Source: Pelosinus propionicus DSM 13327 (GTDB lineage: Bacteria > Bacillota > Negativicutes > DSM-13327). Taken from it: a stretch of DNA of 64,000 nucleotides. Below the pieces are notes generated by a model. That model worked only from the letters and a program-made list of their open reading frames with translations. It did not search any database and was not told the origin of the DNA. The stretch is from positions 1 to 64,000 of the forward strand of contig NZ_FOTS01000005.1 of the NCBI RefSeq assembly GCF_900114615.1. Direction: 5' to 3'. The translations under genes and the position numbers were made by a program. Positions 48,051-57,755 of the stretch are shown one piece after another. Position 1 is the first letter of the stretch, and every line of letters starts with the position of its first letter.

Positions 48051-48095
48051 TATTAACATTACAATGTTACAAAAAATATCTGGGAGGAAATGAAA

Positions 48096-48863
48096 ATGTC
48101 TAAAAAAATACTATCCTTGTTCGTTGTTGGGATATTTATCCTGTCGTTAGGTTTAGTCGGGTGTGGTAAGCAGGAGGCTAAGCCTGCTAAAGTGTTGAAA
48201 GTAGGATCGGAAGCTGCTTTTGCCCCCTTTGAGTTTCAAGATGAGAGTACAAAAGAATATGTAGGTTTTGATATTGATTTAATTAAAGCCATTGGTAAAC
48301 AAATGGGTGCGGAAGTGCAGATTCAAAATATGGGATTTGATGGATTGATTCCTGGTTTAGAAGCTAACAGTATTGATTTGGCTATTTCAGGAATGACGAT
48401 TACAGAAGAACGTGCCAAAAAAGTAAGCTTTTCTAAGCCTTATTATAAATCAGGTTTGACGATGGTTGTAAAAAGTGATAATACCAGTATTAAGTCTTTC
48501 AAAGATTTAGAAGGTAAAAAGATTGCTGTTCAATTAGGAACTACTGGTGCAGATGAAGCTAAAAAAGTAAAAGATGCCCAAATTCGTGAATTTAATAGCG
48601 CCCCAGAAGCTTTTTTAGAGCTCAAAGCTGGTGGTGTTGATGCCGTTGTAAATGATAAACCAGTTAATGAGTATTATATTGCTAAAACGGGCGGTAATGA
48701 TGCTAAAATGGTTGGTGAACCTCTAACTGCTGAAGATTATGGTATTGCGGCTTCAGGTAAGAATAAAGAGTTAATTGCTCAAGTTGACAAAGCAATAGAA
48801 GAATTAAAAAAGAATGGCGAATATGAAAAAATTTACGTAAAATGGTTTGGTAAAAAGCCGTAA
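48096..48863 (+). CDS. Amino-acid ABC transporter substrate-binding lipoprotein, copy 2
   Basis: 255-residue paralogue of the preceding protein, with lipobox LGLVGC, KVGSEAAFAPFEFQDE, GFDIDLIKAIGKQMGAEV, SGMTITEERAKKVSFSKPYY and the shared ending GEYEKIYVKWFGKKP. GGGAGGAA lies 8 bases before the ATG at 48096 and directly abuts the one at 48090, so 48096 is preferred. Conservation with copy 1 is high along the whole length, showing recent duplication. Differences in the ligand lobe (DAGFAPF versus EAAFAPF) may alter specificity. Confidence 0.93.
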   Translation: MSKKILSLFVVGIFILSLGLVGCGKQEAKPAKVLKVGSEAAFAPFEFQDESTKEYVGFDIDLIKAIGKQMGAEVQIQNMGFDGLIPGLEANSIDLAISGMTITEERAKKVSFSKPYYKSGLTMVVKSDNTSIKSFKDLEGKKIAVQLGTTGADEAKKVKDAQIREFNSAPEAFLELKAGGVDAVVNDKPVNEYYIAKTGGNDAKMVGEPLTAEDYGIAASGKNKELIAQVDKAIEELKKNGEYEKIYVKWFGKKP

Positions 48864-48884
48864 TTTAAATTATCGTACAAATAG

Positions 48885-48923
48885 ACATGGGAGCGTTTAT
48901 GACTAAACGTTTCCATGTTTTTT
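48885..48923 (+). terminator. Terminator after binding-protein gene 2
   Basis: A 15-bp stem (ACATGG, a mismatch, then AGCGTTTA against TAAACG and CCATGT) with a 4-base loop runs into TTTTTT. Confidence 0.9.
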
Positions 48924-48961
48924 ATGTGTGTATTGCGTTATGAAAAAAGCAACATTAATCT

Positions 48962-49028
48962 GTCATTGCGAGCATAGCGAAGTAATCTCTTGTTTGCTAA
49001 AAGATTGCTTCACTCTGTTCGCAATAAC
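48962..49028. repeat. Imperfect palindromic intergenic repeat, copy A
   Basis: GTCATTGCGAGCATAGCGAA begins the left arm, and AGATTGCTTCACTCTG with TTCGCAATAAC forms the right arm. The same element recurs at 62486-62552. The form (CATTGCGAGC...GCTTCGCTCGCAATGAC) resembles the small palindromic repeats scattered in many bacterial genomes. The 314-base gap holds only this, a terminator and a promoter. Confidence 0.8.
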
Positions 49029-49106
49029 AAAGGAGAACGTCAATAGTTTTATTACGCGAAGAGTGGACATTTAACAGCATGTTTACCTTAAAAACACAAA
49101 AAATGC

Positions 49107-49134
49107 TTGATGATTCAGAAAAAAGATGTAAAAT
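49107..49134 (+). promoter_or_regulatory. Promoter of the third amino-acid-binding protein gene
   Basis: TTGATG, a 16-base spacer and TAAAAT. It is weaker than, and unrelated in flanking sequence to, the two promoters of the other copies, so expression may differ. Confidence 0.55.
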
Positions 49135-49177
49135 AGTAGAAGGTAAAGAAAACGAGTTGTTATAGGAGGGTATTGGA

Positions 49178-49957
49178 TTGTCTAAAAAAATGCTTGGTTT
49201 AATGGTAGTTGGAATTTTGGTATTATCCTTGGGTTTAGTGGGCTGCGGCCAAAAGCCTGCAGATACTAACAAGGCTAAAGTATTAAAAATTGGTGCAGAG
49301 ATGACGTTTCCACCTTTTGAATTCCAGGAAGAAGGCAATAAAGAATATGTTGGCTTTGACATGGATTTGGCAAAAGCAGTGGCAAAACAAATGGGCTATA
49401 CGACAGAAATTCAAAACATTGGTTTTGACGGATTGATTCCTGCTTTGGAAGCAGGCAATATTGATATGATTGTTTCGGGTATGAGTATTACAGAAGAGCG
49501 CAGTAAAAAAATAGCGTTTTCTAAGCCATACTATAAATCAGGATTGTCCATCGTGGTTAAAGGGGACAACAATTCGATTACTAACTTTAAAGATTTGGAA
49601 GGTAAAAGAATTGCTGTACAAATTGGTACTACAGGTGCAGAAGAAGCTAGAAAAATAAAAGATGCAAAGGTACGGGAGTACAACAGTAATTCCGAAGCAT
49701 ATATGGAACTGAAAGCTGGCGGCGTAGACGCTGTAGTAAATGATTTGCCGGTAAATGAATATTACTTAACAAAAAGTGGCGAGAAAAATGCTAAAATCGT
49801 CGGCGATATCATGAATGCCGAAGAATATGGCATGGCTGTAACCAAGAAAAATACGGAACTGGTAGAAAAAGTAAATAAGGCAATCGATGAATTAAAGAAA
49901 AATGGTGAATATGAAAAAATTTATGTAAAATGGTTTGGTAAAAAACCACAATTATAA
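49178..49957 (+). CDS. Amino-acid ABC transporter substrate-binding lipoprotein, copy 3
   Basis: 259-residue paralogue with lipobox LGLVGC, KIGAEMTFPPFEFQEE, GFDMDLAKAVAKQMGYTT, SGMSITEERSKKIAFSKPYY and the ending GEYEKIYVKWFGKKP. The TTG start is 6 bases after TAGGAGGG, and no ATG fits. The aromatic pocket residue differs (TFPPFEF instead of AFAPFEF), which suggests another ligand than copies 1 and 2. It ends before a convergent outer-membrane protein gene, so it is not cotranscribed with the permease. Confidence 0.93.
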   Translation: MSKKMLGLMVVGILVLSLGLVGCGQKPADTNKAKVLKIGAEMTFPPFEFQEEGNKEYVGFDMDLAKAVAKQMGYTTEIQNIGFDGLIPALEAGNIDMIVSGMSITEERSKKIAFSKPYYKSGLSIVVKGDNNSITNFKDLEGKRIAVQIGTTGAEEARKIKDAKVREYNSNSEAYMELKAGGVDAVVNDLPVNEYYLTKSGEKNAKIVGDIMNAEEYGMAVTKKNTELVEKVNKAIDELKKNGEYEKIYVKWFGKKPQL

Positions 49958-49967
49958 AAAAATGAAG

Positions 49968-50000
49968 AGGCTGTCTCAATTGATATTTGAGGCAGCCTTT
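49968..50000. terminator. Stem-loop between convergent genes
   Basis: AGGCTGTCTCAA pairs with TTGAGGCAGCCT (one G-U pair) and is followed by a T-rich, interrupted tail. It probably ends the upstream binding-protein transcript and may also serve the minus-strand gene. Confidence 0.7.
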
Positions 50001-50027
50001 GCTATTTCTTTACTATACAAGAGGAAA

Positions 50028-50612
50028 CTATATCCCAAACATAACGTTTGAATCATCTCCAGCATCTTCTTTGTTAATGCCTCCCATATTGAAGCGATAG
50101 GATAAACCCCAATAAAAGCCATCACATTTTTTATCGTTAAACTTCCCAACTCGGTAAGTAAAATTGGTTTTCAAATCATCAGTCAGCTTATAGCTTAATC
50201 CAATTTGTGATTCGCGGAAATGACTGCCGATAACTTGGGAAGCGTAGTAATCCCAGTCTTCATTCAAAATACCGGTAGTTGCTGCTCCCAAAAAAGATTT
50301 GTTATGAGAATTCATTTCTGCATTGCCTACAATAAAACGAGAGCTAGGACCAAAGTTGAATTGTGCATAGGTTTCATTAACCTTGTATCCAGCGGAACGC
50401 CAATTTGTCTTTTCGAACCCAACTGTTAGTGTATGTGTAATTTTATAATCAAAGTTGTAATTATTCCCACTATCACTACTGTTGTGGATCATGAAGTCTA
50501 CGTTTAAATCTCCGGTTTCTAAATTTTTAACTGGAGCAGCCATTGCAGTGCCAAGCATTAAGTATGTACAAAAAAAAGATACGATTGCTGTTTTCGTTTT
50601 TTTCTTCAACAT
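50028..50612 (-). CDS. Putative outer-membrane beta-barrel protein
   Basis: 194-residue protein with a clear Sec signal peptide (basic KKKTKTA, hydrophobic core, cleavage near GTAMAAP). The mature part alternates polar and aromatic residues in short strands (THTLTVGFEKTNW, ETYAQFNFGPSSRF, GLSYKLTDDLKTNFTYRVG, YWGLSYRFNMGG) and ends in FGI. This is the look of a small outer-membrane barrel and implies a diderm envelope. No specific family recognised. AGGAGGG precedes the ATG on the minus strand. It is transcribed against all its neighbours. Confidence 0.72.
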   Translation of the reverse strand: MLKKKTKTAIVSFFCTYLMLGTAMAAPVKNLETGDLNVDFMIHNSSDSGNNYNFDYKITHTLTVGFEKTNWRSAGYKVNETYAQFNFGPSSRFIVGNAEMNSHNKSFLGAATTGILNEDWDYYASQVIGSHFRESQIGLSYKLTDDLKTNFTYRVGKFNDKKCDGFYWGLSYRFNMGGINKEDAGDDSNVMFGI

Positions 50613-50832
50613 AAAAAATCCCTCCTAAATATTTTGATAAACTTTCAATTAAAATAATTATCGCTGTTTATTTTTGTTTTTTGCTTTGAAAATAAAAAAA
50701 GCTGCTTTAAGTCAGACTAGTTTACATCTATTGTATCTTTGTAGATTCTTTGTTTTGTTATTTAAAGGGGGATATAGTGCAGAACCTTAAGGAACCTCGT
50801 ATTTCAAAGATTGTATAGCACTTTGCTGAGGA

Positions 50833-50861
50833 TTGACAGCGTTGCTCTATGTGTTTATAAT
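50833..50861 (+). promoter_or_regulatory. Perfect consensus sigma-A promoter of the permease/ATPase operon
   Basis: TTGACA, exactly 17 bases, and TATAAT. The rest of the 305-base gap (50613-50917) holds the divergent start of the outer-membrane protein gene and A/T-rich sequence in which I see no gene. Confidence 0.9.
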
Positions 50862-50917
50862 CATAGTGTTGCGTTATTATATATGCATACATATTTTTTG
50901 AATTAAGGGTGAAGACT

Positions 50918-51583
50918 ATGAACTTTGATTTTGATTTAATTGTGCGTTCCTTTCCCCTTTTGTTAGTCGGTGCAGGGGTAACGGTGCAAATTACAGCATT
51001 TAGCGTGAGTCTGGGTTTGCTAATTGGTATGTTTGTTGGAATTGCACGTTTATCCAATACTTGGATTATTAAAGCATTAGCTGCAGTGTACGTCGATTTT
51101 ATTCGCGGTACACCATTGCTCGTGCAGATTTTTCTTATTTACTTTGCACTGCCGATTATTGTAGGACAGAGGATTGATCCATTTATTGCTGCAATTACTG
51201 CTTGCAGTATTAACAGCGGCGCCTACGTTGCAGAAATTTTTCGCGGCGGAATTCAGTCCATTGACAAAGGACAGATGGAAGCAGGACGTTCTCTAGGTAT
51301 GACTTGGGGACAGACTATGCGCCATATTATATTACCGCAAGCTTTTAAACGCATCATCCCGCCTTTGGGCAATGAATTTATTGCAATGATGAAAGATTCT
51401 TCTTTAGTATCGGTAATTGGTTTTGAAGAGCTTACGAGAAGAGGGCAGTTAATTATTGCTCGGACCTACGGGTCTTTTGAAATATGGTTATCTGTTGCTT
51501 TTATTTATTTGATTATGACCTTCACGATTTCACGTTTGGTAGATTACTTGGAGCGGAGGTACAAAATCGATGATCGACATTAA
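50918..51583 (+). CDS. Polar amino-acid ABC transporter permease
   Basis: 221-residue HisM/GlnP-type inner-membrane subunit with about five membrane spans. It has [20 protein letters not shown] at the start, [19 protein letters not shown] as the family signature, and the EAA loop [20 protein letters not shown]. It works with the ATPase that follows and presumably accepts cargo from the three binding proteins upstream. AAGGGTG is 6 bases before the ATG at 50918; a GTG at 50909 lies in that site. It overlaps the ATPase gene by 14 bases. Confidence 0.93.
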
Positions 51584-52289
51584 AAATGTGCATAAACATT
51601 TTGGTAAACTTCATGTTTTAAAAGGAATTAATGCTCATATTGCTGAAAAAGAAGTTGTCGTTATTATAGGACCGAGTGGTTCAGGTAAGAGTACCTTGCT
51701 CCGCTGCATTAACTATTTAGAAGAGCCAACAGAGGGCGAAATTGTAGTAGATGGCATTCCTCTTACAAATCAGGCCAATATTAACAAAGTGCGGGAAGAA
51801 GTAGGAATGGTTTTTCAGCGCTTTAATTTATTTCCGCACAAATCAGTATTGGAAAATATCATCTTGGCGCCAATGACTGTGCGAAAAACACCGAAGTCTG
51901 AGGCGATTAAAATAGCTCAAGATTTACTGGTTAAGGTTGGACTAGCTGATAAAGAACATGCTTATCCAGAACAGTTGTCAGGTGGACAGCAGCAGCGGGT
52001 TGCAATTGCCAGAGCTTTGGCTATGAAGCCTAAAATCATGCTATTCGATGAACCAACTTCTGCACTGGATCCGGAAATGGTTAAAGAAGTACTGGATGTT
52101 ATGAAATCCTTAGCTCATGAGGGGATGACAATGGTAATTGTTACTCATGAAATGGGCTTTGCCCGCGAAGTTGGGGATCGAGTTCTTTTTATGGATGAAG
52201 GACGTCTTGTAGAAGAAGGTTCGCCAGAAGAGATTTTTACTCATGCCAAAGAGGAACGAACGAAATCATTTTTATCTAAAATATTGTAA
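51570..52289 (+). CDS. glnQ: Polar amino-acid ABC transporter ATP-binding protein (GlnQ-like)
   Basis: 239-residue ABC ATPase. Walker A is [13 protein letters not shown], the Q-loop is [19 protein letters not shown], the signature is [20 protein letters not shown], Walker B is [13 protein letters not shown], and the switch histidine is in [15 protein letters not shown]. Full length, with the typical PAAT-family subtype. Translation is coupled to the permease gene. The exact amino acid cannot be deduced; glutamine, arginine and cystine are the usual options. Confidence 0.95.
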
Positions 52290-52842: not shown

Positions 52843-53373
52843 ATGGCAATCATCGTACGAGGCAAAAATATTGAAATTACGCCAGCACTAAAGGAGTATG
52901 TAGTAAAACGCACAAGTAAGATTACAAAATACTTCGATACTCTAGGAGAAATTACAGCTATTTTAGCTGTAGAAAAAGGTCGCCATATTATTGAATTGAC
53001 TGTGCCGGTTAATGGTATGATTCTCAGAGGCGAGGAAGCCACTGCTGATATGTATACTTCCATTGATTTAGTTGTAGACAAAATTGAAAAACAAATTGAA
53101 AAATATAAAACTAAAATTTCCCGCCGCATGAAAGCAGGTGCTTTTAAAGGGGAATTAGTGGCAGCTACAGCTGCTCCAGAAGTCGAAGAGCTGCATGTTG
53201 TGAAGACGAAGCGATTTGCTGTTAAACCGATGGATATTGAAGAGGCTATTTTACAGATGAATCTTGTCAATCATGATTTTTATGTATTTAGCAATTCAGA
53301 AACCGAAGAGGTTAATGTAGTATACCGCCGCAAAGATGGGCGATATGGCTTGATCGAACCTGATTTTAACTAA
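52843..53373 (+). CDS. hpf: Long-form ribosome hibernation promoting factor
   Basis: 176-residue HPF/RaiA. The N-terminal ribosome-binding domain (about 1-100) begins IIVRGKNIEITPALKEYVVK and has YTSIDLVVDKIEKQIEKYK. The C-terminal dimerisation domain (about 120-176) has VVKTKRFAVKPMDIEEAILQ and YRRKDGRYGLIEP. The long form alone can pair 70S ribosomes into 100S dimers. AAAGGAGATG precedes the ATG. In many Firmicutes hpf is followed directly by secA and prfB; here a hydrogenase operon lies between. Confidence 0.96.
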   Translation: MAIIVRGKNIEITPALKEYVVKRTSKITKYFDTLGEITAILAVEKGRHIIELTVPVNGMILRGEEATADMYTSIDLVVDKIEKQIEKYKTKISRRMKAGAFKGELVAATAAPEVEELHVVKTKRFAVKPMDIEEAILQMNLVNHDFYVFSNSETEEVNVVYRRKDGRYGLIEPDFN

Positions 53374-53429
53374 GATAGATATTGTTTAAGGTTAGTTAAA
53401 ATAAAGAAATAGTGCAGAGTTAAAGAGTA

Positions 53430-53487
53430 AGCACAAGGTAAACCAGATGAAATATGTTTCATCTGCGTTTACTTTGTGCTTTTTTTA
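53430..53487 (+). terminator. Terminator after hpf
   Basis: A long hairpin: AGCACAAGGTAAACCAGATGAA pairs, with small mismatches, to the arm ending TTTACTTTGTGCT and then runs into TTTTTT. Confidence 0.92.
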
Positions 53488-53508
53488 TATAATGCCAAGT
53501 GGTTAACA

Positions 53509-53535
53509 CCCCCTTTTCTGCCATTATGAAGGGGG
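53509..53535 (+). promoter_or_regulatory. Leader hairpin immediately before the hydrogenase ribosome-binding site
   Basis: CCCCCTT pairs perfectly with AAGGGGG around a 13-base loop. The stem ends directly next to AAGGAGGA, the Shine-Dalgarno of the hydrogenase gene. A role in translation control or mRNA stability is possible. It lacks a U tract, so it is not a terminator. Confidence 0.5.
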
Positions 53536-53551
53536 AAGGAGGAATAATACT

Positions 53552-55093
53552 ATGGGGATATTTACGGAAAAGACAAGCACGTTATCACGGAGAAAGTTCT
53601 TTAAATTGCTTGGAGGCATAGGGATGACGGGGGCTGCTGCTTCTATATCTGGCTGTACTACTGAAGCGGTTGGAGGAAAAGGATGGATACCTGGGCAGTA
53701 TCAAGTACCTGGGAATTGGCCGGTGAAGGTTAAAGGACGTATCCCGATTGATCCTCAAAACCCATCTATTGTGAGGGATGATCAAAAATGCATTTTGTGC
53801 GGTCAGTGTTTGGATGTTTGTGAGAAAGTGCAGACGGTCTACGGATATTATGATTTGCCGATAAAAAAAGATATTACCTGTGTGCACTGTGGACAGTGTG
53901 CCTTGTGGTGCCCAACGGCATCAATTAAAGAAAGGGACGATATTCAAAGTGTACTGCGAGTATTAGACGATTCTAATATGCATGTTATCATTCAAACAGC
54001 TCCTGCAACTCGTGTTTCCCTTGGGGAAGAGTTTGGCCTGCCGCCCGGCAGCATAGTAGAAGGACAGCAGGTTGCCGCTCTTAAAAAGTTAGGTTTTGAT
54101 TCCGTATTTGATACAAATTTTAGCGCAGATATAACAATATTGGAAGAGGCGGCAGAGCTGTTGAATCGTTTAGAGCAAAGTAATATCTTACCGCAGTTTA
54201 CCTCCTGCTGCCCAGGATGGGTAAAATTCTGCGAATACTATTATCCTGATTTACTATCCCATCTATCCTCTGTGAAGTCTCCCCAGCAAATTTTAGGGGC
54301 TTTGGCAAAGACGTATTACAGTGAAAGAGTTGGAATAGCACCTGAAAATATTGTTTCTGTGGCTGTTATGCCTTGTACTGCAAAAAAGTTTGAGTGCCAG
54401 CGACCGGAAATGAATTCTGCTGGGCGAATCATTGGAAATCCTCGAATTCGTGACGTGGATTTTATATTAACGACTAGAGAATTAGCGAGTTTAATGAAAT
54501 TGCGAAAGATTGATCTCAATGGTTTGGACAATGAAGCATATGATCAGTTGATGGGAGAAAGCAGTGGGGCAGGTGTCATTTTTGGTGCTACTGGAGGAGT
54601 AATGGAAGCGGCTGTTCGTTCTCTTTATTTTTTGGTCAGCAAACAGCGTCCACCTGAGCAGCTGCTTGAGCTTAATGCTGTGCGAGGTCTTGATGGTGTC
54701 AAGGAAGCTGAGGTTATCATTCCGGGCAAAGGAAGCCTGAAAGTTGCAGTTTGTCATGGGTTAAAGAATGCCAGAATGATTTTGGAAAAGGTTCGTGCGG
54801 GCAATTCCCCTTGGAGCTTTATTGAATTTATGGGCTGCGCAGGAGGATGCATTGGCGGTGGTGGTCAGCCTCGAACGTCCTTAGCGTCTGCGGATGAAGT
54901 CAGGCGAGCGCGCATGGCTAGCCTCTACAATTTAGATGGCAGAGTATATAGAAAAAGAGCTAGCTTTGAAAATCAGAAAGTTCAAAATTTATATAAAGAA
55001 TATCTTGGTCATCCGGGGAGTGAACTTGCCGAAACATTATTACATACTCATTATATCGATCGTGCTAAAGATCTAACGATCAGAAAGAAATGA
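53552..55093 (+). CDS. Tat-exported [FeFe]-hydrogenase with lipobox
   Basis: 513-residue hydrogenase. The N-terminus has a twin-arginine motif (SRRKFFKLL, residues 12-20), a hydrophobic stretch and a lipobox-like SISGC with Cys35. Two [4Fe-4S] motifs follow (C80/C83/C86/C90 and C110/C113/C116/C120). All three H-cluster motifs are intact: TSCCPGW (217-223), MPCTAKKFE (273-281) and FMGCAGGCIGGGGQP (426-440). FGATGGVMEAAVRS is also typical, and a C-terminal small-subunit-like segment (FENQKVQNLYKEYLG) completes it. The enzyme therefore acts outside the cytoplasmic membrane, with the iron-sulfur and membrane subunits encoded next. This suggests H2 uptake coupled to quinone. GGAGGA precedes the ATG. 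Confidence 0.92.
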   Translation: MGIFTEKTSTLSRRKFFKLLGGIGMTGAAASISGCTTEAVGGKGWIPGQYQVPGNWPVKVKGRIPIDPQNPSIVRDDQKCILCGQCLDVCEKVQTVYGYYDLPIKKDITCVHCGQCALWCPTASIKERDDIQSVLRVLDDSNMHVIIQTAPATRVSLGEEFGLPPGSIVEGQQVAALKKLGFDSVFDTNFSADITILEEAAELLNRLEQSNILPQFTSCCPGWVKFCEYYYPDLLSHLSSVKSPQQILGALAKTYYSERVGIAPENIVSVAVMPCTAKKFECQRPEMNSAGRIIGNPRIRDVDFILTTRELASLMKLRKIDLNGLDNEAYDQLMGESSGAGVIFGATGGVMEAAVRSLYFLVSKQRPPEQLLELNAVRGLDGVKEAEVIIPGKGSLKVAVCHGLKNARMILEKVRAGNSPWSFIEFMGCAGGCIGGGGQPRTSLASADEVRRARMASLYNLDGRVYRKRASFENQKVQNLYKEYLGHPGSELAETLLHTHYIDRAKDLTIRKK

Positions 55094-55146
55094 TTTGAGG
55101 CGTAGCTGCTTTTCAAGAGGCTGTTTTTTATGAATGGAGGAGGACG

Positions 55147-56004
55147 ATGATGACGAAAGGCATTTTAGTGGATATCCCTAAATGCATAGGCTGTGGCAGT
55201 TGCACGGTAGCTTGCAAATTATGGAATCAGGTGGACTTTGATGATCGATATCCTTCTAGTGGGAAGGAAGCAGTCTTGAGTGATAAGAATTGGACGATTA
55301 TCGTATCTTGTGAAGTGATAGATAAGGAGAGTCGTCCTGCTTGGCGTTTTATAAAGCAGCAATGCTTGCACTGTCAGCAGCCTGCCTGTGTTTCTGCGTG
55401 TTTTTCTAAGGCACTGCAGAAAAATAGTGATGGGGCAGTTGTATATTATCCTCATTTATGTGTGGGCTGTCGTTACTGTATGGTGGCTTGCCCTTTTGAT
55501 ATTCCTCGATATGAATGGGATAAGACATTTCCATTAGTAACCAAGTGTCAAATGTGCTCAATACGGATTAGCCAAGGAGAAGCTCCAGTGTGTGTGATGG
55601 TTTGCCCAACAGGTGCCATAGAATTTGATGAACGCGATTCTTTGTTAAAGAAGGCACAAGCTAAAATGAATAAGGATTCAAATTATATAAGAGGTATCTA
55701 CGGAGAAAAAGAAGTTGGTGGAACAGGATGGCTGTATATCTCTGATATTGCTTTTGATCAGTTGGGATTTAAAACAAATCTGGGAAGTGATTCGTTGCCT
55801 ATTTATAGTCATAATTATCTAAAGTATATACCAGGCATAGCTGTCATTTGGGGGATGGTGCTAACAGTCCTGTATTATTACAGTAAACGAAAAAAAGAGC
55901 TGTTAACTAAAAATCAGGAATTAGAAGATAGTAGTGATAATAAACAGGAAAAGGAAGTTATTCGGGAAAAATCATTTGAAACGTCAAAGGATAAGCATAA
56001 CTAA
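55147..56004 (+). CDS. HybA/DmsB-like four-cluster ferredoxin with C-terminal membrane anchor
   Basis: 285-residue electron-transfer subunit. Cysteine motifs in order are CIGCGSCTVAC (13-23), CLHCQQPACVSAC, CVGCRYCMVACPFD and CQMC...CVMVCPTG, fitting four [4Fe-4S] clusters. A single membrane span at about 225-245 (IPGIAVIWGMVLTVLYYY) is followed by a highly charged tail. It has no signal peptide of its own, so if it works outside the membrane it would have to be co-exported with the Tat-dependent hydrogenase as a hitchhiker. It would pass electrons from the hydrogenase to the NrfD-like protein. GGAGGAGGACG precedes the ATG. Confidence 0.9.
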   Translation: MMTKGILVDIPKCIGCGSCTVACKLWNQVDFDDRYPSSGKEAVLSDKNWTIIVSCEVIDKESRPAWRFIKQQCLHCQQPACVSACFSKALQKNSDGAVVYYPHLCVGCRYCMVACPFDIPRYEWDKTFPLVTKCQMCSIRISQGEAPVCVMVCPTGAIEFDERDSLLKKAQAKMNKDSNYIRGIYGEKEVGGTGWLYISDIAFDQLGFKTNLGSDSLPIYSHNYLKYIPGIAVIWGMVLTVLYYYSKRKKELLTKNQELEDSSDNKQEKEVIREKSFETSKDKHN

Positions 56005-56039
56005 CGTTGCTCTTGTTACGAACCTACGCTTATCCTTTG
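55985..56039 (+). terminator. 12-bp perfect inverted repeat at the 3' end of the ferredoxin gene
   Basis: CAAAGGATAAGC (55985-55996) pairs with GCTTATCCTTTG (56028-56039), then TTTATAG. The left arm lies in the last codons of the ferredoxin gene. It could act as a partial terminator that lowers expression of the membrane subunit, or as an mRNA-stabilising stem. Confidence 0.6.
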
Positions 56040-56092
56040 TTTATAGTTAGTGGTTTTCTAAGAAAATTGCATGATGATTAGGAGGAAGAACA

Positions 56093-57244
56093 ATGAAAAA
56101 TGACTTTTTACCTTGGCGGTTTACGATTACCAAGCCTCGTATGATGTTGCTGTTTTTGGCGGCTGTAAGTACAGCGATTATTGTTTTCCGCTTAATTACA
56201 GGGTTTGGTCTGGTAACCAATTTGAATGACAATCATCCATGGGGTTTTTGGATTGCTTTTGACGTTCTTGCAGGTGTAGCTTTGGCTGGAGGCGGATATT
56301 CTACGGCATTAATTGTTCATATTCTGCATCAAGAGCAATACATATCTGTGGCAAGAAGCGCACTTTTAACATCTTTATTTGGATATATCTTAGTAATGGC
56401 TGGTTTGTTTTTAGACATTGGCCAATGGTTTAATTTCTGGCGGCCTTTTGTATCTTGGGGGCATTCTTCAGTACTTTTCGAAGTATTTTGGTGTCTTTCC
56501 ATTTATACGACGATTCAAATTCTAGAATTCGGCGAAATTGTTACGGAGCGAGTTGGTGTAAAGTTTCATGCATGGATGAAAAAACTAATGCCTATCCTAT
56601 TGATTGTGGGAGTGATTTTTCCCACGTTGCATCAAAGTTCTCTTGGAGGGCTATTTCTAATTGCTGTATATAAGTTATATCCTTTATGGTGGTCAAGCTT
56701 TATCCCTATTTTCTTCCTATTATCTTCATTTTTTGTTGGTCCGGCGATGATTTGTGTAGAATCCATTATAGCCGGCAGAGCCTTTAACCACGATATTTCA
56801 ACATCTGTACTGCATGGCTTAGCCAAAATTAGCAGCTGCGCAATGATTCTTTATTTCGTATTGAAAATATATGATCTTTCTGAAAGGGGAATCTTAAGAT
56901 TGATGTTTACTGGCAATATAGAAGGTAATATATTTTTAATTGAAATGATAGCTGGTATTATTCTTCCGGTTGGCATTGTTTTTAGTAAATGGGGTATTAC
57001 TAAAAAAGGTTTATTATCATATGGGCTGTTGGTTAGCGGCGGCGTAATTCTTAACCGTTTAAGCATTGTATTTATTGGCTTGTCCAAGCCAGGACAAGGT
57101 AGTTATCTTCCTACTGTATGGGAAGTATTAACTAGTCTTGGTTTGGTGGCTATTGGCTGTTTGGCCTACTGTTTTATTGTAGAAAACTTTCGTATCTTTG
57201 CGGATAAAGATAATAAGAAAATATACTTAAAGAATTCAGCATAG
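56093..57244 (+). CDS. NrfD/HybB-like quinone-reactive membrane subunit
   Basis: 383-residue integral membrane protein with about ten hydrophobic spans. Family features include the early span MMLLFLAAVSTAIIVFRLI, the HPWGFWIAFDVLAGVALAGG segment near the first periplasmic loop, and LFLDIGQWFNFWRPF. These match NrfD/HybB/PsrC proteins, which exchange electrons between a four-cluster ferredoxin and menaquinone. It completes a hydrogenase-ferredoxin-membrane module. GGAGGAAGAAC precedes the ATG. Confidence 0.9.
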   Translation: MKNDFLPWRFTITKPRMMLLFLAAVSTAIIVFRLITGFGLVTNLNDNHPWGFWIAFDVLAGVALAGGGYSTALIVHILHQEQYISVARSALLTSLFGYILVMAGLFLDIGQWFNFWRPFVSWGHSSVLFEVFWCLSIYTTIQILEFGEIVTERVGVKFHAWMKKLMPILLIVGVIFPTLHQSSLGGLFLIAVYKLYPLWWSSFIPIFFLLSSFFVGPAMICVESIIAGRAFNHDISTSVLHGLAKISSCAMILYFVLKIYDLSERGILRLMFTGNIEGNIFLIEMIAGIILPVGIVFSKWGITKKGLLSYGLLVSGGVILNRLSIVFIGLSKPGQGSYLPTVWEVLTSLGLVAIGCLAYCFIVENFRIFADKDNKKIYLKNSA

Positions 57245-57273
57245 AATGCTAACATGCTTTTTTGATTTACTGA

Positions 57274-57483
57274 TTAGGATAAGAGTTCCAGGCGACGATT
57301 TGTTACAAGTTCGCTAAGGGTTGCGGTATCCAATTCTCTGGCCTTACGTGCGAATTCTTCGCGGGTAAAGATTTTTTTGTCAATAAGTAAATCAATTAAT
57401 ACTGTGATTGCTAAGGTATTCTTATAATCCGTATCTTTTAAGTCTGCAATTTGTCCAATTACGTTGATCGAGTTTAGTTGCAA
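57274..57483 (-). CDS. Small conserved-looking protein, function unknown
   Basis: 69-residue acidic, helical protein. The segment DKKIFTREEFARKARELD, followed by LSELVTNRRLELL, has the look of a small Firmicute protein family, but I do not recognise a function. The TTG start is supported by AAGGAGG 7 bases upstream on the minus strand. It is convergent with the hydrogenase operon and divergent from secA. Confidence 0.65.
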   Translation of the reverse strand: MQLNSINVIGQIADLKDTDYKNTLAITVLIDLLIDKKIFTREEFARKARELDTATLSELVTNRRLELLS

Positions 57484-57652
57484 GGTAATTCCTCCTTAAA
57501 ATAAAAAACGATTCTATAGTCTCAGGTATTCCCATTTTATGAGTAATTTATACTTAAAAAATGATTCTCTGCGCCCCTGATGGTTCCTTTTTTATTACTT
57601 TTTCCATATAAAGATGATTGCTTGCTGTGAGGCAAGTCTTTCTTTATTTACT

Positions 57653-57681
57653 TTGACTTATGTATTATCTTTTGATAAAAT
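57653..57681 (+). promoter_or_regulatory. Probable secA promoter
   Basis: TTGACT, 17 bases, TAAAAT. The 272-base gap otherwise contains a short hairpin (CTTGC...GCAAG, 57621-57636) and no recognisable gene. Confidence 0.7.
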
Positions 57682-57755
57682 TTAGAATTAGGCATATACT
57701 GTAAACTAACAGAAGTTTTTTACGTATGCGCTAACTTTTAAGGAGTTGATACCAG

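Follow-up and report, generated by a model that had tools for sequence, protein, structure and literature searches.

A predicted Tat-exported [FeFe]-hydrogenase with HybA- and HybB-like partners encoded between hpf and secA in a Sporomusaceae-type bacterium

The stretch of DNA analyzed in this work, 64,000 nucleotides long and hereafter referred to as the window, harbors between hpf (52843-53373) and secA three tandem plus-strand genes, which span positions 53552-57244 (53552-55093, 55147-56004, and 56093-57244 in the ORF listing), are separated by gaps of 53 and 88 bases, and are each preceded by a GGAGG-type ribosome-binding site. A long plus-strand hairpin followed by a T-run (53430..53486, with a terminator-like match at 53444-53465) lies after hpf and represents a probable terminator parting this gene from the hydrogenase operon. 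The short gaps, the hairpin closing hpf upstream, and the position of secA downstream suggest that the trio, coding for a hydrogenase, a ferredoxin, and a HybB-like protein, is probably transcribed as a single unit.

According to profile and domain matches, the first gene (53552..55093, plus strand, as are all the features described below for the trio) codes for a HydA-like [FeFe]-hydrogenase of 513 aa, predicted to be exported, which scores above the cut-off for group A [FeFe]-hydrogenases (TIGR02512, 482.7 bits vs. 405.95). Its N-terminus, MGIFTEKTSTLSRRKFFKLLGGIGMTGAAASISGC, contains a Tat signal with the motif SRRKFFK and the lipobox ISGC (53552..53656), the two arginines corresponding to residues 13-14 (bases 53588-53593) and the lipobox cysteine to Cys35 (bases 53654-53656). 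The sequence then includes two [4Fe-4S] motifs, C80-C83-C86-C90 and C110-C113-C116-C120 (53789..53914), an H-cluster domain with FTSCCPGW, MPCTAK, and FMGCAGGC (PF02906, 53981..54862), and, fused at the C-terminal end, an iron-hydrogenase small-subunit domain (PF02256, residues 448-504, 54893..55063). The best-scoring NCBIfam relative is the profile of the NADH-dependent group A6, which is matched only from position 133 of 571; indeed, the protein lacks the N-terminal region of that family and carries the Tat signal and the lipobox in its place. Among solved structures, the HydA chains of electron-bifurcating enzymes rank at the top (435 and 408 bits), and the Desulfovibrio enzyme scores 395 bits. 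An NADH-linked or bifurcating HydABC was rejected on the basis of this late-starting A6 match, which leaves no room for an N-terminal [2Fe-2S] domain, and of the neighbors, which are hpf and secA and not genes for flavin/NADH subunits. A sensory hydrogenase was also rejected, no sensor domain being found in the family and domain matches of the protein, and a frameshifted or hybrid reading of the locus was considered and rejected as well.

The second gene (55147..56004) codes for a HybA/HmcB-like protein of 285 aa with four [4Fe-4S] clusters, as assigned from profile and domain matches; it is nearest to HmcB (263.5 bits) and HybA (190.5 bits), both scores lying under the curated equivalog cut-offs. 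A signal peptide is absent from its start, MMTKGILVDIPKCIGC, which leads directly into the first cluster motif. Close to the other end, a hydrophobic stretch, LKYIPGIAVIWGMVLTVLY (residues ~225-243, 55819..55875), is followed by the positively charged YYSKRKKE and is predicted to form an N-out/C-in anchor. Its hydropathy is borderline (1.62) and falls near that of E. coli HybA (1.82), yet values in relatives range from 0.78 to 1.69, so that a role of this C-tail as membrane anchor is likely but not certain; its position and charged end are conserved.

The third gene (56093..57244) codes for an integral membrane protein of 383 aa, which profile and domain matches and alignment assign to HybB/HmcC/NrfD-like quinone modules (E 4e-79 to HybB), and it is the only NrfD-family match that a family search found in the assembly. 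Aligned with E. coli HybB over the full length, it shares 124 of 378 residues; a sequence comparison with solved structures gave no match. The NrfD-family residues that a review assigns to quinone binding and to the proton route from the cytoplasm (PMC8076601), several of which are needed for activity in QrcD and HybB according to mutation (PMC13059093; PMC8076601), are largely retained. In HybB numbering, Ser129, Arg89, Tyr99, Tyr141, and His184 are kept in all 27 NrfD-like members, and Asp58, Glu133, and Glu148 in 26 of the 27; in its own numbering, the window protein has D57, S126, E130, R88, Y98, Y138, E145, and H180, as well as R322 of the outer path, and the HybB residues S105, S190, T63, and H85 are not kept. 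The three proteins therefore agree with the original prediction, which had described a hydrogenase with a twin-arginine signal and a lipobox-like Cys35, a HybA-like ferredoxin devoid of a signal, and an NrfD/HybB-like third protein.

When a collection of 84,980 genomes was scanned once, 79 loci were kept, 30 of which have an exported-type N-terminus and 49 no signal. The 30 exported-type loci belong to Sporomusaceae, Desulfotomaculum-type genera, and Desulfosporosinus. The twin arginines are kept in 29 of them and the lipobox cysteine in all; two loci are cut by a contig end, and in 26 of the remaining 28, testable for partners, genes for HybA-like and HybB-like proteins lie directly downstream in the same order. 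Such partners were found near none of the 49 loci without signal. Thus, the Tat signal and the HybA/HybB partners go together, and the figures (29/30, 30/30, and 26/28) argue that this is not a chance observation. In the phylogenetic tree, the exported proteins are grouped apart from the paralogs encoded in the same genome as the window, and an unsignalled Lachnospiraceae protein (L042) falls inside the group. Constraining the exported proteins to one clade was not rejected (AU p 0.295), so that export may have arisen only once.

Some loci depart from this pattern. The closest relative outside the genus (L007:5644-7176; L113 is probably the same assembly) reads TRLNFLK, which is not a twin-arginine motif and reflects either degeneration of the Tat motif or a faulty assembly, and retains the lipobox and the partners. 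In Sporomusa sp. KB1 (L011:1399-7485), an [FeFe]-hydrogenase of the exported clade has no HybA/HybB pair nearby and follows a Tat-bearing molybdenum enzyme of the DMSO reductase family, a DmsB-like ferredoxin, a TorD/DmsD-like chaperone, and a rhodanese. A Peptococcaceae MAG from buffalo cecum (L032:5980-7521) carries a lone Tat-lipoprotein [FeFe]-hydrogenase with unrelated neighbors on both sides.

As for the site itself, a close homologue exists in three of ten genomes of the family. The seven genomes without it (L115, L116, L118-L121, and L123) have hpf followed, after ~0.5-1.1 kb, by secA, and the window (53374-57755) and genome G004 carry the operon at exactly that place; the sequence before secA is still recognizably the same in the seven operon-less genomes. 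In the more distant L007 and L035, hpf likewise lies just upstream of hydA. An old residence of the operon with repeated loss fits these data best, even though a repeated gain at the hpf-secA site may also have occurred.

The gene content of the genome was then considered family by family. The original prediction implied export of a folded enzyme after maturation in the cytoplasm and had proposed a genome search for HydEFG and Tat; this search revealed a single TatC, whose gene is immediately preceded by a TatA-like one, and HydE, HydF, and HydG at separate places, none adjoining the operon. Family searches also detected MqnC of the futalosine route to menaquinone and gave no match above cut-off for MenD in the genome; the related S. 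ovata has been reported to have ubiquinone rather than menaquinone, a point against menaquinone as the acceptor. The genome includes two [NiFe]-hydrogenases, each adjoining a cytochrome-b-like gene and one of them with a Tat signal on the small subunit, as well as other [FeFe] proteins, one of which is located inside a formate-dehydrogenase-type cluster; hence, the exported hydrogenase would be one of several H2 routes. The second, divergent [NiFe]-hydrogenase (L127:842-3932, contig C115) has a small subunit that, as read, shows no evident Tat signal; the cytochrome-b-like gene beside it has the opposite orientation, and HydE is on the same contig. The formate-related cluster (L124:575-6262, contig C61) embeds a second HydA, two HycB-like ferredoxins, a MoaA-like gene, and an FdhF-like formate dehydrogenase, and is of the formate-hydrogenlyase or CO2-reductase type.

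As judged from sequence, the trio very likely encodes a Tat-exported, outward-facing, membrane-bound H2:menaquinone oxidoreductase. In such a system, the H-cluster would be inserted in the cytoplasm by HydE/F/G, and the enzyme, folded around the cluster, would bind the signal-less ferredoxin, so that the pair would cross the membrane via TatA/C, the ferredoxin being a hitchhiker. A lipid attached to Cys35 would then tether the hydrogenase, and the C-tail would do so for the ferredoxin; with H2 oxidized outside, the electrons would travel along the clusters of the hydrogenase and then the four of the ferredoxin before reaching a quinone at the HybB-like subunit. Uptake of the quinone protons from the cytoplasmic side, demonstrated for QrcABCD, would lead to a proton motive force if it also takes place in this system. 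Export of the folded enzyme, hitchhiking of the ferredoxin, and transfer to quinone, as originally proposed, represent the best reading and are supported as a prediction, since the genome encodes Tat, HydE/F/G, and mqnC and the third protein retains most of the quinone-site and proton-path positions of HybB. The host is probably two-membraned, and in a two-membrane cell the lipid anchor could sort the hydrogenase to either membrane, including the outer one.

A different question concerns the direction in which this complex usually works. Given a proton motive force, H2 release from menaquinol would be possible, as in E. coli hydrogenase-2, and the complex might serve mainly as a redox valve, in which menaquinol and the proton motive force would drive the reduction of protons outside. 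HybB-type modules are indeed reversible, PMC13059093 quotes H2 evolution from glycerol by a Hyd-2 variant of E. coli, and [NiFe]-hydrogenases beside cytochrome-b-like genes are already available for uptake. However, electron transfer from H2 to menaquinone is strongly downhill, and release requires that H2 be low and the proton motive force large; we therefore regard release as a rather unlikely main function, albeit one to be taken seriously.

Other explanations concern the partner and the location of the enzyme. The exported hydrogenase might deliver electrons to some other redox protein outside, soluble or metal-reducing, with the HybA/HybB pair reduced to an anchoring role or to a second outlet; the two exported relatives without such a pair nearby (L011 and L032) are in agreement with this idea, but the window and 26 of the 28 exported relatives that could be tested conserve the pair, with the quinone-site residues intact, which makes it highly improbable. 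We give somewhat more credit, while still considering it doubtful, to the related idea that the hydrogenase is a plug-in H2 electrode with a swappable partner, which would be either HybA/HybB, leading to quinone, or, in Sporomusa sp. KB1, a Tat-exported molybdenum enzyme reached directly outside without quinone. Finally, the N-terminus might fail to function as a Tat signal, in which case the enzyme would act inside the cell, as the RL in place of RR in the close relative L007 could suggest; nevertheless, the SRRxFFK-type motif, the h-region, and the lipobox are kept across genera, and the homologous cytosolic enzymes have instead an N-terminal extension bearing further clusters, which renders this explanation extremely unlikely.

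The predicted outward-facing H2:menaquinone oxidoreductase shares a HybA-like ferredoxin and a HybB-like quinone subunit with E. coli hydrogenase-2 (HybOABC), from which it differs in that the catalytic subunit is [FeFe] rather than a pair of [NiFe] large and small subunits, and in that HybA of E. coli itself bears a Tat signal whereas the window ferredoxin has none. With the periplasmic HydAB of Desulfovibrio it has in common the same catalytic domains and (in the window, predicted) export; in HydAB, a separate small subunit bears the Tat signal and a soluble cytochrome serves as partner, whereas in the window the small-subunit domain and the Tat signal are on one chain and the partner is the HybA/HybB pair. 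HydA2B2C2 of Sporomusa ovata is likewise a predicted periplasmic, membrane-linked [FeFe]-hydrogenase, with a different arrangement, the Tat signal being on HydB2 and the anchor being a cytochrome b (PMC9430772).

The closest precedent is a 2024 study of tail-anchored Tat substrates, whose Figure 4 presents the module, with a signal peptidase II site and a proposed co-export with the hydrogenase, in Desulfotruncus alcoholivorax, Desulforamulus hydrothermalis, and Proteus (PMC10924467). That module and the window share a hydrogenase with Tat and signal peptidase II features, a signal-less ferredoxin with a C-tail (in the window, of borderline hydropathy and only a likely membrane anchor), and a HybB-like partner; the window differs in its Sporomusaceae-type host, in having hydE/F/G away from the operon, and in its site between hpf and secA. 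Moreover, two earlier genome reports describe, in passages that do not name the partner proteins, Tat-bearing, membrane-associated [FeFe]-hydrogenases in D. ruminis (2012; Desru_3431-3433 and 0447-0445; PMC3569383) and D. gibsoniae (2014; Desgi_0926-0928; PMC4148979), which, like the window, have three genes and a predicted outward-facing membrane enzyme; in D. ruminis the anchor is described as an uncleaved signal helix and not a lipid (PMC3569383). The novelty that the original prediction had implied for the pairing of an exported [FeFe]-hydrogenase with HybA/HybB thus does not hold, the module and the hitchhiker idea being already in PMC10924467, with PMC3569383 and PMC4148979 as earlier genome reports. 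The locus is a further case of a published module, the principle of which is not new.

The locus remains interesting for the taxonomic range of the module, for a host that probably has two membranes, and for the exceptional relatives in which the hydrogenase is not paired with HybA/HybB. The module of sulfate reducers and Proteus extends to Sporomusaceae-type bacteria, in which H2 oxidation on the outer side with transfer to quinone is relevant to energy conservation in quinone-containing anaerobes. An [FeFe] enzyme exported folded would also allow Tat proofreading to be examined with respect to H-cluster maturation, and the Sporomusa sp. KB1 operon points to a possible direct coupling of H2 to a molybdenum enzyme.

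Two further features were noted in the window. A short reading frame, MQLNSINVIGQIADLKDTDYKNTLAITVLIDLLIDKK..., is located on the minus strand at 57280-57495, before secA, and the DNA of this interval is recognizable also in relatives without the operon. At 48090-52289, two near-duplicate solute-binding lipoproteins of the amino-acid type are encoded upstream of ABC permease and ATPase genes.
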